Below, in pieces: positions 51,669 to 63,732 of a stretch of DNA of 64,000 nt. The stretch lies in NCBI RefSeq assembly GCF_016860525.1, contig NZ_BNEA01000001.1, positions 1 through 64,000 on the forward strand, given 5' to 3'. Position numbers and translations under genes: made by a program. This stretch comes from Streptomyces rubradiris. GTDB taxonomy: Bacteria > Actinomycetota > Actinomycetes > Streptomycetales > Streptomycetaceae. Position 1 is the first letter of the stretch. Each line of letters opens with the position of its first letter. Below the pieces are notes generated by a model, which was given only the letters and a program-made list of their open reading frames with translations, ran no database searches and was not told the DNA's origin.

Positions 51669-51669
<1 letters not shown>
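46918..51669 (-). CDS. Type I PKS, one module: KS-AT-KR-ACP
   Basis: About 1583 aa. Docking helix [32 protein letters not shown] near 193; AT GHSVG near 638, HAFH near 735 (malonyl); KR with structural subdomain and TGATGAIG near 1156, LDD motif (B-type) and [25 protein letters not shown] near 1460. No DH motif (HxxxGxxxxP) between AT and KR, so this module leaves a beta-hydroxyl. ATG at 51669 shares one base with the previous stop (TGATG); a GTG one codon earlier is also in frame. The C-terminal docking tail [14 protein letters not shown] suits the next gene's N-terminus. Confidence 0.95.
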
Positions 51670-57104
<5,435 letters not shown>

Positions 57105-57225
57105 CAGCGCGCCATCCGATCGGGATCGAAGTGAGGGCCTGGGCCGTGCGGATCGCCTCCGGACGGTTGCCGGTCCGCTTCCCCTTTCGCTGTCGGAGGC
57201 TAGGCAGGGGGTGGTGACGCGGGAC

Positions 57226-57242
57226 ACCCCTAGGGCCCCCAG
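57226..57242 (-). promoter_or_regulatory. Direct-repeat operator upstream of the right PKS operon
   Basis: Minus strand CTGGGGGCCCTAGGGGT: a perfect TAGGGGT half-site preceded by a degenerate TGGGGGC half-site at 9 rather than 10 bp. About 120 nt upstream of the GTG start, as at the P450 operon. Confidence 0.5.
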
Positions 57243-57304: not shown

Positions 57305-57673
57305 TCATCCGCCGGCCGTGGTCACGGTGGCCAGCCGGTAGCTGCCGGCCAGTTCCCTGACCTCCGTTGAGACGACCGCCTCGGGCACGCCGGCCGCGCG
57401 CAGATGTGCCTCGGCCAGGGCCAGTACGCGCTCCGACAGGCGGGCCCGCTGGTGCGCGGGACGGCCGGCCAGGAGGCCCACCTCGATGTGCAGGAACGCG
57501 GTCTCCCCGCCCGACGTGTCCCCGACATACGTGTCCACCGGCCGGACGAGCGTCTTGCACACGCCCGTGGATCCGGATTCCTCCAGGACCAGCGGATGCA
57601 GCTCCTTCACGAGGACGCCCGCGTCGAGGACTCCGGCCAGACGGGAGGAGTAGTCGATGGTGAGGTGCGGCAT
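57305..57673 (-). CDS. 5-carboxymethyl-2-hydroxymuconate delta-isomerase-like tautomerase
   Basis: 122-aa member of the CHMI branch of the tautomerase superfamily. After removal of Met the chain begins with the catalytic proline (PHLTIDYS), and the CHMI pattern continues with GVLVKELHPLVLEE, FLHIEVGLLAGRP and the C-terminal REL-SYR segment. No homoprotocatechuate genes are nearby. It lies on the same strand just upstream of the PKS promoter. It may be flanking, or it could act on an enolisable group such as the beta-keto amide predicted here; that role is speculative. Confidence 0.85.
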   Translation of the reverse strand: MPHLTIDYSSRLAGVLDAGVLVKELHPLVLEESGSTGVCKTLVRPVDTYVGDTSGGETAFLHIEVGLLAGRPAHQRARLSERVLALAEAHLRAAGVPEAVVSTEVRELAGSYRLATVTTAGG

Positions 57674-57793
57674 GCGGGACCTTTCATCACACTTCCTAGT
57701 TTCTCAAGGCAACTATTTTCTCTCACGGTGTCCGGACCCCGACGCCCGCCCCGGCATCGCGGCCCGCTCCCCCGGCTCACATAGGTTGTGCGC
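57674..57793. other. Divergent promoter region, tautomerase / MurJ-like gene
   Basis: 120 bp with an A/T-rich core (around 57690-57725), the only such stretch near this cluster edge. No defined operator was recognised. Confidence 0.5.
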
Positions 57794-59518
57794 ATGATCG
57801 AGGACGCGAAGACGAGGCCACGGGGTGTGCCCGCACAGCGCCGGCGCCGGGGCAGACACGCCGCCCCCGCGGGCCGGGCGGACCGCCGCGGGCGAGGCCA
57901 TCGCCGGAAGAGACCGGCGCCTCCCGGGCCGGCCCGGGCCTCGATGCTGATGGCGGCCGGCACCGTGGTGTCCCGGGCGACGGGACTCATACGCACGGTG
58001 CTCCAGGCCGCCGCCCTGGGCACGGGCCTGCTGGCGAGCACCTACAACACGGCCAACACGGTGCCGACCAGTCTGTACACGCTCCTGATCGGCGGCGCCC
58101 TCAACGCCGTCCTCGTGCCGCAGCTGGTGCGCGCCCGCGCCACGCACCCCGACCGGGGCCGGGCCTACGAGCAGCGGCTGGTGACCCTCGTGGTGTGCGT
58201 CCTCGGTGTCGGGACGGTACTGGCGGTGTGGGCGGCGCCGCAGATCGTCGGCGTCTACATGCGGGACACCGCCGACAACCACGAGGCCTACGAACTGACG
58301 GTCACCTTCGCCCGCTACCTGCTGCCGCAGATCTTCTTCTACGGCCTGACCGGCATCTACGGCCAGGTCCTCAACGCCCGCGAGAAGTTCGGCGCGGCGA
58401 TGTGGACGCCGGTGCTGAACAACGTCGTCCTGGTCGCCATGTTCGCCGCCTACCTGGGCCTGATGACGGTCCCCGACCGGGTGGCGGACATCACGGCCGG
58501 CCAGGTCCGGCTGCTCGGCATCGGCACGACCGCGGGCATCGCCGTGCAGGCCCTCGCCCTGATCCCGTTCGCCCGCGCCGCCGGCTTCCGCTTCCGGCCG
58601 CGCTTCGACTGGCGCGGCACGGGCCTCGGCTCCAGTGTCCACGCGGCCAAGTGGACCCTGCTGTTCGTGCTGGCCAACCAGGTGGCCCTGGCGGTGGTCA
58701 CCAACTACGCCAACGCCGCCGACCAGGAACTCCCGGACGCGGGCGCGGGCTACTCGGCGTACACGTACGCGCAGACCATCTGGATGCTTCCGCAGTCCAT
58801 CGTCACCGTGTCCCTGGTGACCGCGCTGCTGCCGCGCATGAGCCGGGCCGCGGCGCAGGGGCGGGTGGCCGACCTGCGGGCGGACCTGTCCCGCGCCCTG
58901 CGGGTCAGCGGCGCCGTCATCGTGCCCGCCGCGTTCTTCTTCCTCGCCCTGGGCCCGCTGCTGGCGGAGCTGCTGTTCGCCCACGGTGCCGCCGACGCGG
59001 CCACGGCCCGGCCGCTCGGCCACATGCTCCAGGCGTTCGGCCCCGGCCTGATCCCGTTCTCCGCCCAGTACCTGCTGCTGCGCGGCTTCTACGCCTACGA
59101 GGACACCCGTACGCCGTTCTTCATGGCCGCGTGGGTCGCCGTGGTGAACATCGCCCTCGCCACCGCCTGCCACGTGCTGCTGCCCGCGCGCTGGGCGGTG
59201 ACGGCGATGGCCGGGGCGTACACGCTGTCCTACGCGATCGGGCTCCTGGTGACCGCGCGGCTGCTGCGGCGACGGGTCGGCGGACGCCTCGACGACGGCA
59301 CCCTGCGCCGCACCTACGCCAAGCTGCTGCTCGCCGCGGGCCTCGGCGCGGCCCTGGGCTGGACCGCCGCCCACGCCTGCGCCGCCCACCTGGGCACCGG
59401 GACATGGCCCACGGCCCTCTCCCTGACGGCGGGCACGGTGACGCTGGCCGCGGTCTACGTGACGACGGCCCGCCTGCTGCGGGTGCCGGAACTACGACGG
59501 CTGCCGGTGCTGCTCTGA
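57794..59518 (+). CDS. MurJ/MviN-family lipid flippase
   Basis: 574-aa polytopic membrane protein of the MOP exporter superfamily. After a basic N-terminal tail (RRRRGRHAAPAGRADRRGRG region) come about 14 hydrophobic segments. MurJ-family signatures: ASTYNTANTVPTSLYTLLIGGALNAVLVP split across the first helices, GLTGIYGQVLNAREKFGA, and YTYAQTIWMLPQSI. MurJ moves lipid II across the membrane; Streptomyces has several paralogues, and this may be one of them rather than the essential copy. ATG at 57794 preferred over GTG at 57788 because AGG lies eight bases upstream. Confidence 0.9.
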   Translation: MIEDAKTRPRGVPAQRRRRGRHAAPAGRADRRGRGHRRKRPAPPGPARASMLMAAGTVVSRATGLIRTVLQAAALGTGLLASTYNTANTVPTSLYTLLIGGALNAVLVPQLVRARATHPDRGRAYEQRLVTLVVCVLGVGTVLAVWAAPQIVGVYMRDTADNHEAYELTVTFARYLLPQIFFYGLTGIYGQVLNAREKFGAAMWTPVLNNVVLVAMFAAYLGLMTVPDRVADITAGQVRLLGIGTTAGIAVQALALIPFARAAGFRFRPRFDWRGTGLGSSVHAAKWTLLFVLANQVALAVVTNYANAADQELPDAGAGYSAYTYAQTIWMLPQSIVTVSLVTALLPRMSRAAAQGRVADLRADLSRALRVSGAVIVPAAFFFLALGPLLAELLFAHGAADAATARPLGHMLQAFGPGLIPFSAQYLLLRGFYAYEDTRTPFFMAAWVAVVNIALATACHVLLPARWAVTAMAGAYTLSYAIGLLVTARLLRRRVGGRLDDGTLRRTYAKLLLAAGLGAALGWTAAHACAAHLGTGTWPTALSLTAGTVTLAAVYVTTARLLRVPELRRLPVLL

Positions 59519-61564: not shown

Positions 61565-61685
61565 GCCGGCCCTTGCCCGACCGCGGCGACCCGTCGGCCG
61601 TCGCAGCCCCCCGACGGCTGATGTCCGGGCACCGCGTGATGAAGTGTGGGCCTGACAACTCCGGCAGCAAGGAGCGCTTCTTCCG

Positions 61686-62462
61686 ATGCCCGCACAGCCC
61701 GCACGCCCTGAGCGCAGGGGGCCCGAGACCGCCTCGGTCATGGATGTCCCGCCGTTCAGGCCGTCTCTCGTCAAAGCGGTGTTCAGGGACCTGACTTCGC
61801 TGCACGTCTCCCGGTCGGCCGCGTGGGCCGCCGCGTCGGTGACGCGGACGGTGCTGGCGGAGATCATCGACGGCGCGAGGAGAGCGGCGGCGGAGGAGGC
61901 CCGGACGAAGCTGATCCCCGGCGACCTTCTCCGGGCGATCGACCGGAACGTCGAGCTGGAGGTGGGGACCAAGTGGTACCACCACAGCCCGACGTTCAAG
62001 GGCCTGACCGGTGTCCTGTACGACGCCGAGGGTGTCATCGTGCCTTCCCGTGAGCGCCGTGGGTCGCGTAGACCGAGTGCTGTGGCCGGTGCGCACCGGT
62101 TCGAGGCCGGGGTGAGGAAGCTGCTGCGGAGCCGGGGGGCGACGGCCGTCCCGGTGATGGTCCGCGACCTGGACGGCATCGCGAGCGTGTTCCTGACGGA
62201 CCTCGCCCGTGACGCGGCCATGGTCGTCCGCGAGGGCGGGGTCAAACGTTTCGGTACGGTCGCCCTGGTGACGCCGGGCGAACCGGTCCCTCCGCCGCTC
62301 CTCAAGGACCCGCTCCTGGCCCTGTCCACCCGCAAGGGGGACAGGCGGACCATCGGCAGGGACGACGTCCTGGCCGCCACCACGATGCAGTTGTCCGGCG
62401 GAGTGAGGCAACGAGCCCTCACCGAAGCACGCGAGGCGACACGGAACGCTCCGGCCGGCTGA
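61686..62462 (+). CDS. Putative histone-fold doublet protein
   Basis: 258 aa, no standard family recognised with certainty. Two segments look like histone folds. First (about 27-90): helix RPSLVKAVFRDLTSLH, long helix AAWAAASVTRTVLAEIIDGA continuing to about residue 70, then TKLIPGDLLRAIDRNVEL, much like the end of H2A (loop-Pro, short helix AIR-type). Second (about 135-245): helix FEAGVRKLLRSRG, long helix LDGIASVFLTDLARDAAMVV, then after an insertion of about 40 residues RRTIGRDDVLAATTMQL, like the H4/NF-YB loop-helix. Each has the Arg/Thr pattern before helix 3 or in loop 1. AAGGAG precedes the ATG. The 3' end overlaps the convergent GH88 gene by 44 bases. Likely DNA binding; inference from pattern only. 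Confidence 0.6.
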   Translation: MPAQPARPERRGPETASVMDVPPFRPSLVKAVFRDLTSLHVSRSAAWAAASVTRTVLAEIIDGARRAAAEEARTKLIPGDLLRAIDRNVELEVGTKWYHHSPTFKGLTGVLYDAEGVIVPSRERRGSRRPSAVAGAHRFEAGVRKLLRSRGATAVPVMVRDLDGIASVFLTDLARDAAMVVREGGVKRFGTVALVTPGEPVPPPLLKDPLLALSTRKGDRRTIGRDDVLAATTMQLSGGVRQRALTEAREATRNAPAG

Positions 62463-63732
62463 GCTGCCGGACGGCCGAGGACGGCTGTGACAGGTCGATC
62501 GCCCGGTCCACGTCCGCGGGGCGGAGCACTCGCAGGATGCCTTCGAGGAGGTAGTAGTCGGCGTAGGGCAGCGAGATCTCGATGCCGTCCTCCCCCGGAC
62601 GGTTGCGGGTGCAGCGGGCCACGACCGCCTCCGCCCGGGCCGAGTTCCTGGTCAGGCACGTCTCCGCGAGCGCGGTGAGGATGCGCAGCGCCACGTCCCG
62701 GTAGGCGCGCCGGCCGGTCGCCGCGTGCAGGTCCAGCAGGCCGCACGCCATGACGGCCCCGGCGGAGGCGTCCTTGATGTCGTACGGCTGCTGCGGCGCC
62801 CGGTAGTCCCAGACGGGAACGTGGTCCGGGGTCAGCGCCTCGATGGCGTAGTCGGCGAGTCTGCGCGCGGTGTCCCGGAACCCGGTGTCGCCGGTCCTGC
62901 GGTACATGGTGGTGAACCCGTAGATGCCCCACGCCTGCCCCCGCGACCAGCAGGAGGAGGCGGCGTAGCCCTGCACCGTGGCGGGGCCGAGGGGCGCGCC
63001 GGTGTCCGGGTCGAAGTCGTACACGTGCGGGGTCGAGCCGTCCGGGCGGGGGAAGACACGCTGGGCGGTCTTCGCGTGCGCCACCGCGATGTCCAGGTAG
63101 GCGGGGTCACCGGTCTCCCTGCTCGCGAACGCCAGCAGGTCCAGGTTCATCATCGTGTCGATGATGACGCGGCCGGCGTTGGCGGTGTCGTGCAGCGCGC
63201 CCCACGCCCGGATGAACCCGCCGCGCGGGTTGTAGCGCCGTACCAGGGAGTCCGCCGCGCGTAGGGCGCCGGTGCGCCACTCGTCGTCACCGGTCAGCCG
63301 CCAGGCGGTGACCCAGGAGGGGTAGAAGAGGAAACCCAGGTCGTGGGTGGTGGTGTCGGTCTGGCGGGGGGCCAGGTTCCGGGCCGACTCCACCGCCCGG
63401 GCGCGGAAGGTGTCGTCCCCGCTGTACAGGTACGCCATCCACAGCGTCCCGGGCCAGAAGCCGCCCACCCAGTCCCCGCCGCGCGAGTACGTCCACTTCT
63501 CGAACTTGGTGCCGACCGGGAAGCCGGTCACGCGGGGCGCCACTGCGCGGACCTTCGCCACCGCGTAGTCCGCGGCAGCGCTCAGCGCACGCGGAATCGC
63601 GCCCGTCCCCGCCGGTCCGGCCGCCCCCGCGGGTCCGGCCGCCGCCGCGGGTGCCGCCGACGCCTCCGTGGCCGGTCCCACGGCCGCCGCACCCGCCGCC
63701 GTGACCAGCAGCGCACGCCGGGAAACGCTCAT
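62419..63732 (-). CDS. GH88-family unsaturated glucuronyl hydrolase, Tat-exported
   Basis: 437 aa. The N-terminus is a twin-arginine-type signal (SVSRRALLVTAAGAAAVG, cleavage probably after ASA). The mature part has the (alpha/alpha)6-barrel features of GH88: HDLGFLFYPSW and IDTMMNLDLL, which carry the two catalytic aspartates, and SSCWSRGQAWGIYGF. It removes unsaturated uronic acids from products of polysaccharide lyases. ATG at 63732 has GGGAGG upstream. Upstream region has a perfect palindrome. Flanking catabolic gene, unrelated to the polyketide. Confidence 0.9.
   Translation of the reverse strand: MSVSRRALLVTAAGAAAVGPATEASAAPAAAAGPAGAAGPAGTGAIPRALSAAADYAVAKVRAVAPRVTGFPVGTKFEKWTYSRGGDWVGGFWPGTLWMAYLYSGDDTFRARAVESARNLAPRQTDTTTHDLGFLFYPSWVTAWRLTGDDEWRTGALRAADSLVRRYNPRGGFIRAWGALHDTANAGRVIIDTMMNLDLLAFASRETGDPAYLDIAVAHAKTAQRVFPRPDGSTPHVYDFDPDTGAPLGPATVQGYAASSCWSRGQAWGIYGFTTMYRRTGDTGFRDTARRLADYAIEALTPDHVPVWDYRAPQQPYDIKDASAGAVMACGLLDLHAATGRRAYRDVALRILTALAETCLTRNSARAEAVVARCTRNRPGEDGIEISLPYADYYLLEGILRVLRPADVDRAIDLSQPSSAVRQLSRPERSVSPRVLR

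Follow-up and report, generated by a model that had tools for sequence, protein, structure and literature searches.

A Streptomyces gene family predicted to encode two histone folds in one chain, and its apparent horizontal spread

Can a bacterium encode a protein in which two histone folds are joined in a single chain, and if so, what kind of gene carries it? The question is raised by a gene at positions 61686 to 62462 of a 64,000-nucleotide stretch of Streptomyces rubradiris DNA (NCBI RefSeq assembly GCF_016860525.1, contig NZ_BNEA01000001.1, positions 1 to 64,000 of the forward strand; hereafter the window, meaning the whole stretch analysed), for which a preliminary description had proposed two fused histone folds in one bacterial protein. 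The proposal is borne out, as both halves are predicted to be histone folds and control comparisons score lower, and we regard the presence of two histone folds in one chain as close to certain. The window's genome carries the gene as a single copy, and its relatives form a family that is patchily distributed among Streptomyces.

Two predicted histone folds and their relatives

The gene and the parts of its product are as follows.

61686..62462, + strand: gene for the double-histone-fold protein, 258 amino acids (open reading frame with an ATG start; relatives; ratio of nonsynonymous to synonymous substitution rates, dN/dS, 0.55, below 1)
61761..61946, + strand: histone fold 1, residues 26-87 (AlphaFold2 model; H2A by profile and hhalign)
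62103..62390, + strand: histone fold 2, residues 140-235 (AlphaFold2 model; H4-like helices 1-2, H2B-like helix 3)
62232..62357, + strand: 42-residue loop, residues 183-224, from helix 2 to helix 3 of fold 2 (model)
62397..62444, + strand: C-terminal helix, residues 238-253, similar to the alphaC helix of H2B (model; weak profile alignment to H2B together with helix 3)
62037..62087, + strand: basic flexible linker, residues 118-134 (charge, conserved arginines, low model confidence)

The AlphaFold2 model contains two complete histone folds per chain, with helices at residues 26-36, 43-70 and 78-87 in fold 1 and at residues 140-149, 156-182 and 225-235 in fold 2. The predicted local distance difference test score (pLDDT) of the core is mostly 82-91 by ten-residue block, with a value of 67 for residues 81-90, and it falls below 50 in the linker region (102-136) and across residues 187-215 of the long loop. 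A structure lacking a histone fold in one or both halves, the outcome that would have spoken against the proposal, was not obtained. The H2A order assigned to residues about 27-90 matches the modelled helices of fold 1, and the insertion of roughly 40 residues said to precede the last helix proves to be 42 residues long. Both halves together superpose on the H2A-H2B dimer and on the Methanopyrus doublet, which suggests, within the predicted model, that they pair by an intramolecular handshake and form the internal pseudodimer envisaged from the start. Natural deletions remove most of the fold 2 loop in one relative (L100:786-1454) and residues about 107-122 in another (L087:6001-6723), and since the remainder stays in frame in both, these loops look dispensable. 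A single-sequence prediction for L100 gave a model of too low quality to be used (mean pLDDT 47.8).

Taken alone, the window protein yields a weak sequence signal, its matches being TAFII28 in Pfam (E 0.015, under the cut-off of that family) and, as the best in the PDB, H2A (E 0.044), so the family is needed to see its histone identity. Of 8000 candidates scored in a protein search, 439 are relatives at E<=1e-3. The 120 best are 78-100% identical, the named ones belonging to Streptomyces apart from two Embleya and one Actinacidiphila; they are mostly called "hypothetical protein", a few sources giving "histone H3/H4" or a like name, and a precomputed Pfam domain is absent from all 120. A shortened relative (P0125) has a precomputed PF00125 label. 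When 54 diverse members, which are related to one another and hence not independent, were compared with Pfam at E<=1, TAFII28 was matched by 46, Histone (PF00125) by 45 (best E 4.3e-5), CBFD_NFYB_HMF by 10 and DUF1931 by 3. The curated PF00125 cut-off of 26.4 bits exceeds the scores of the four members for which bits are given (15.0-17.1); the window protein has no PF00125 match at E<=10, and its genome has none above the cut-off.

The family profile matches 176 chains of the PDB, the best 60 of which are all histones or histone fusions, and with half 1 alone as the profile the matches are H2A (best E 0.0037; best 60 of 177 chains). The half 2 profile matches two H2B chains, aligned over helix 3 and alphaC, and one further, unrelated chain; its best E value, 0.014, is for an H2B repeat and is the sum of two weak stretches. 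Half 2 of L100, from which most of the long loop is naturally gone, matches 36 chains, of which 33 are H4; these and one H2B lie at E 0.19-0.83, the other two chains being different proteins. In hhalign, half 1 scores 25.4 to H2A and half 2 scores 21.9 to H4, while reversed histones and three unrelated proteins reach at most 16.2 on the halves and 17.5 over the full length. Noise-level scores were obtained for H2B against half 2 (14.1), H3 against half 1 (14.6), HMfB (12.3 and 12.9) and DUF1931 (11.2 and 12.8); despite this, the alignments of HMfB, of H3 and of H2B to half 2 are in register. These results support the assignment of half 1 to H2A and of half 2 to a composite in which helices 1-2 are H4-like and helix 3 and alphaC are H2B-like. 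The earlier assignment of residues about 135-245 to an H4/NF-YB order comes close to this, differing from it in the last helices. A recent duplication as the source of the two halves was rejected, as half 1 against half 2 scores 11.8, at the level of noise. When half 1 was used to look for single-fold relatives, 40 proteins came up at E<=1; they are partial or shortened members, the named ones from Streptomyces.

A doublet had been called unusual for a bacterium; rare as the design is, it is not unprecedented there, DUF1931 pseudodimers (1WWI, 1R4V) being already known. The available text of PMC12701072 presents the histones of bacteria as either alpha3 types or DUF1931 pseudodimers, and a 2026 review of double histone folds (PMC13088155), in its accessible part, gives the bacterial ones as of the 1WWI/1R4V type and names neither Streptomyces nor Actinobacteria. 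Prokaryotic histones have been sorted into 17 categories, with Streptomyces unmentioned in the main text as far as it is accessible (PMC11390915); we found no description of a Streptomyces doublet family in the accessible open-licence literature, although it may figure among those 17 categories. Other surveys, as far as their accessible text goes, report about 600 bacterial histone homologues from classes including Actinomycetes (PMC11317129) and a structural cluster that links eukaryotic and bacterial histones (PMC10584675). A further survey applied cut-offs and discarded proteins longer than 200 amino acids, according to the part of PMC10627809 that is accessible, so a protein of 258 would be excluded.

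The Streptomyces family is a further double-histone-fold family beside DUF1931. The two share a bacterial single-chain double histone fold, whereas there is no significant sequence match between them, and DUF1931 proteins, at about 145 amino acids (1wwi chain 148), have no counterpart of the long loop, the basic linker or the helix that resembles alphaC. Methanopyrus kandleri HMk (1F1E) also has tandem histone folds, and 149 residues superpose at 2.8 A with 20% identity; however, it is archaeal, and its whole chain of 151 residues has no equivalent of the 42-residue loop. The best structural matches of the window protein are the eukaryotic H2A-H2B dimer and the Melbournevirus H2B-H2A doublets (7n8n, 9cvt), with H2A resembling half 1 and H2B resembling helix 3 and the C-terminal helix, but sequence similarity is weak and the order, H2A-like and then H4/H2B-like, is the reverse of that in the giant virus. 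Alpha3 histones (HBb/Bd0055, FtF) are likewise histone-fold proteins, with an RKT-type L2 loop in bacterial dimers; they are characterized by one fold per chain and a last helix of 3-4 residues (PMC11390915, accessible part), whereas the window protein, with two folds and modelled last helices of 10 and 11 residues (78-87 and 225-235), would not belong to that type.

Distribution and mobility of the gene

Matches were found in 4 of 296 genomes drawn across the phylum and in 30 of 197 drawn across the order, all within the window's genus. Among named-species genomes, 93 stretches encode a relative, and the 80 kept come from Streptomyces together with one each from Kitasatospora, Actinacidiphila, Yinghuangia and an unplaced actinobacterium. 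The gene occurs in 4 of 72,556 plasmid records. A phage origin was rejected: none of 50,697 phage records matched at E<=0.1, and none of 86 pattern-matching stretches of IMG/VR encodes a relative. In PHROGs the window protein hit a head-tail connector at E 0.056, which was judged to be due to chance. A defence system was rejected as well, as neither of the two members tried had a PADLOC match. Of 14 genomes with a match and at most three contigs, 13 carry the gene on contig 1, and in 7 of these 13 near-complete genomes it lies less than 1 Mb from an assembly end, which need not be a chromosome end; the remaining genome (G436, match on contig 2) was excluded from this count.

The DNA held in common by relatives with different neighbours is short.

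61632..62464, + strand: stretch common to relatives with different neighbours, the apparent moving unit (blastn)

The blastn pieces from three genomes begin at query positions 733 (G501), 748 (G023) and 753 (G379) and end at 1563-1565, just beyond the stop codon. The GH88 gene, which adjoins the histone unit in the window, lies on a different contig from it in G501 and G379, and no EamA match stands among those listed for the three genomes. The 99 aligned rows comprise a group A of 42, which includes the window, a group B of 27 and smaller sets; S. griseomycini has one copy of each group (L035 and L050). With duplicates removed and only loci having 1 kb on both sides counted, the 37 loci of group A occupy 34 contexts and share a flank in 3 of 666 pairs, homology in the median pair extending from 61 bases upstream of the ATG to 9 past the stop. 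For group B, 21 of 25 loci occupy one linked context and 197 of 300 pairs share a flank. The window and L052 (S. achromogenes) have the same context, at 93% over 8 kb, and the gene was therefore inherited in that pair. By eye, the edges are ragged, with no fixed transposon ends, and no empty site carrying both window flanks was found. Neither an operon nor a partner gene common to the family was seen, the largest neighbour family, by a crude gene finding, covering 12 loci, all of group B. This neighbour is a gene with ALF repeats (PF03752) and, by eye, a leader-like N-terminus, and at these loci, e.g. L043 and L050, it lies on the same strand within about 1.2 kb upstream.

Synonymous divergence was compared with that of lon, the sole control gene, across the same pairs of 20 genomes, which are not independent. 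Within group A, the histone gene stands at 0.175 versus 0.336 for lon (lower in 35 of 36 pairs), and within group B at 0.094 versus 0.394 (28 of 28). Across groups the values are 0.343 and 0.351 (44 of 72), and overall the histone gene is the lower in 150 of 190 pairs; the rank correlation between the two genes is not significant in any set. Flanks free of a shared context, together with copies apparently younger than their hosts, point to horizontal spread, and it is well supported that the histone gene spreads on its own, taking little flanking DNA along. Neither this mobility nor the helix at 238-253 figured in the preliminary description.

The gene is constrained (median dN/dS 0.55 in 4791 pairs; 0.44 for the fold cores and 0.77 for the long loop), yet less so than GH88 (0.27, 28 pairs), EamA (0.32, 6 pairs) or lon (0.13); the value for the ALF-repeat neighbour is 0.58, and base composition may inflate all of these ratios. 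Split or partial copies were encountered in G325, G344, G345, G442 and G476, with a full-length copy alongside in G325 and G345.

Conserved basic residues and possible functions

Conserved residues mark the L2 loops of both folds.

61902..61910, + strand: L2 loop of fold 1, R73-T74-K75, with D80 in the following helix (conservation)
62346..62351, + strand: L2 loop of fold 2, R221-T222 (conservation)

Among 101 copies (100 loci, L003-L102, and the window), 99 are free of in-frame stops within the best match; L041 and L096, with one stop each, were excluded. The 99 represent 92 distinct proteins, on which the residue counts rest; the 7 duplicates, identical sequences under two locus numbers, are still included in the dN/dS set (99 rows), and the 5' leader statistics (88 loci) likewise date from before their removal; a recount on 92 left the readings unchanged. 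L022 and L098 are identical in sequence and change frame near the C-terminus, the first frame being used. Residue positions were matched to the contacts of HMfB and H2A/H2B by a mapping of our own. In fold 1, R73, K/R75 and D80 are each kept in 91 of the 92 proteins, R34 in 86, H40 in 87, S42 in 89 and R43 in 87; in fold 2, the counts are 89 for R221, 90 for T222, 90 for D227, 92 for R/K144 and 87 for K/R145 in helix 1. The isoelectric point (pI) has a median of 10.5 (range 9.0-11.8), and the linker a median net charge of +5, with R124 and R128 each in 89 of 92. It is these conserved basic residues that suggest a chromatin protein or DNA-binding factor.

The reading we put forward, at about an even chance, is that of a pseudodimeric histone that binds DNA, an accessory nucleoid-associated protein of Streptomycetaceae that has spread horizontally. 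The H2A-like fold 1 and the H4/H2B-like fold 2 would pair within the chain by a handshake, and the loops and first helices would expose basic residues, with a basic flexible linker between the folds. Such a protein would probably bind about one dimer's worth of DNA without strong sequence specificity (a histone dimer can bind 30 bp, according to the accessible part of PMC11390915), and would bend, coat or locally compact it, while its gene would spread singly, with only short flanks, and be frequently gained and lost. Some details weigh against this reading, namely that the expected place of the fold 2 L1 arginine is taken by A154 and P156 (92 of 92 each), leaving that loop without a basic residue, and that position 220 is mostly glycine (58 of 92).

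The chief rival is a double histone fold that serves to bind protein, RNA or lipid instead of DNA, a role of the kind proposed for DUF1931 or SOS, its basic face binding a partner. We consider this rather unlikely, as the arginines, lysine and threonine of L2 and the basic residues of fold 1 L1 and of helix 1 in both folds are kept in 86-92 of 92 proteins, pI values are uniformly high and no shared neighbour gene emerged for the family. DUF1931 pseudodimers, by contrast, are reported to lack DNA-binding residues (PMC12701072 and PMC13088155, accessible parts), a loss that the Streptomyces family does not display outside L1 of fold 2. A selfish or conflict gene, acting for example on the DNA of phages, plasmids or competitors with the histone fold as its DNA-handling part, is a less probable explanation still. 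It would accord with the single-gene unit, its ragged edges and 34 contexts, with copies younger than their hosts, a high dN/dS and broken copies, and with the plasmid records and the positions near assembly ends; on the other hand, PADLOC, the phage records and IMG/VR gave nothing, and no fixed ends were seen.

That the family is simply an ordinary but divergent member of DUF1931 appears very unlikely. In its favour, the double histone fold is bacterial in both cases, 1wwi turns up as a structural match and the three members that touch PF09123 do so at a best E of 0.013. The window protein, however, has no match to that family at E<=10, hhalign to one true DUF1931 protein is at noise, and the 5 of 296 Actinomycetota genomes that carry true DUF1931 genes (108-208 bits) all lie outside the window's genus; on these grounds membership was rejected. 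H2A-H2B and HMk also superpose better than 1wwi, though their chains are longer or fuller. CBFD_NFYB_HMF was found in none of 121 genomes of the genus at E<=0.01. Least credible of all is a false positive of the kind that helical proteins can give. Single-sequence scores are indeed weak, the six members with bits given fall below curated cut-offs, and helical bundles often reach middling Z; against this stand six helices of the right order and length, L2 motifs in register with those of HMf, H2A, H4 and H2B, and PDB matches that are nearly all histones while controls score lower.

A wider version of the DNA-binding reading is possible, though we hold it only tentatively: a transferable chromatin protein of Streptomycetaceae, in which an obligate H2A-H2B-like pseudo-heterodimer shapes DNA, spreads as a bare gene and evolves fast. 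Such a protein, a bacterial doublet that retains a DNA-binding face and ends in a helix of H2B type, could have arisen by an independent route or from an old eukaryotic or giant-virus acquisition. As a second bacterial doublet family, unmatched to DUF1931, with most DNA-binding residues kept, with culturable hosts and with a gene that moves between species, it makes directly testable whether such doublets act on DNA and whether the pairing of unequal histone folds has evolved repeatedly. If the DNA-binding reading is true, a histone would here be accessory, transferable cargo rather than core chromatin.

Gene borders and neighbouring genes

Two further features lie at the ends of the gene.

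61616..61685, + strand: 5' leader, about -70 to -1, with sequence conserved across copies (information content, ATG-anchored loci)
62419..62462, - strand: antisense overlap, the 3' end of the GH88 frame inside the histone gene (frame comparison)

Across the 88 ATG-anchored loci, mean information is 0.67 bit at -70 to -11 and 1.36 bit at -10 to +12, and declines to 0.18-0.23 bit farther upstream. Neither a sigma-70-like promoter nor an Rfam match at E<=1 was found at the histone gene.

The GH88 frame of L052 and of L104-L109 ends 2 to 4 residues past a conserved IDLS/IDLT (IDLSQPS in L052). The window's GH88 frame, on the minus strand, has lost this usual stop and runs on to 62419, through the region 62419-62484. 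That the arrival of the histone gene removed the stop is ruled out by L052, which keeps it in the syntenic context described above; the window thus lost the stop after its split from the L052 lineage.

Elsewhere in the window, an open reading frame of 1852 amino acids (51669-57227, minus strand) looks by eye like a modular type I polyketide synthase, and a gene for a MurJ-family flippase (57788-59518, plus strand) adjoins one for a CHMI-like isomerase (57305-57673, minus strand).
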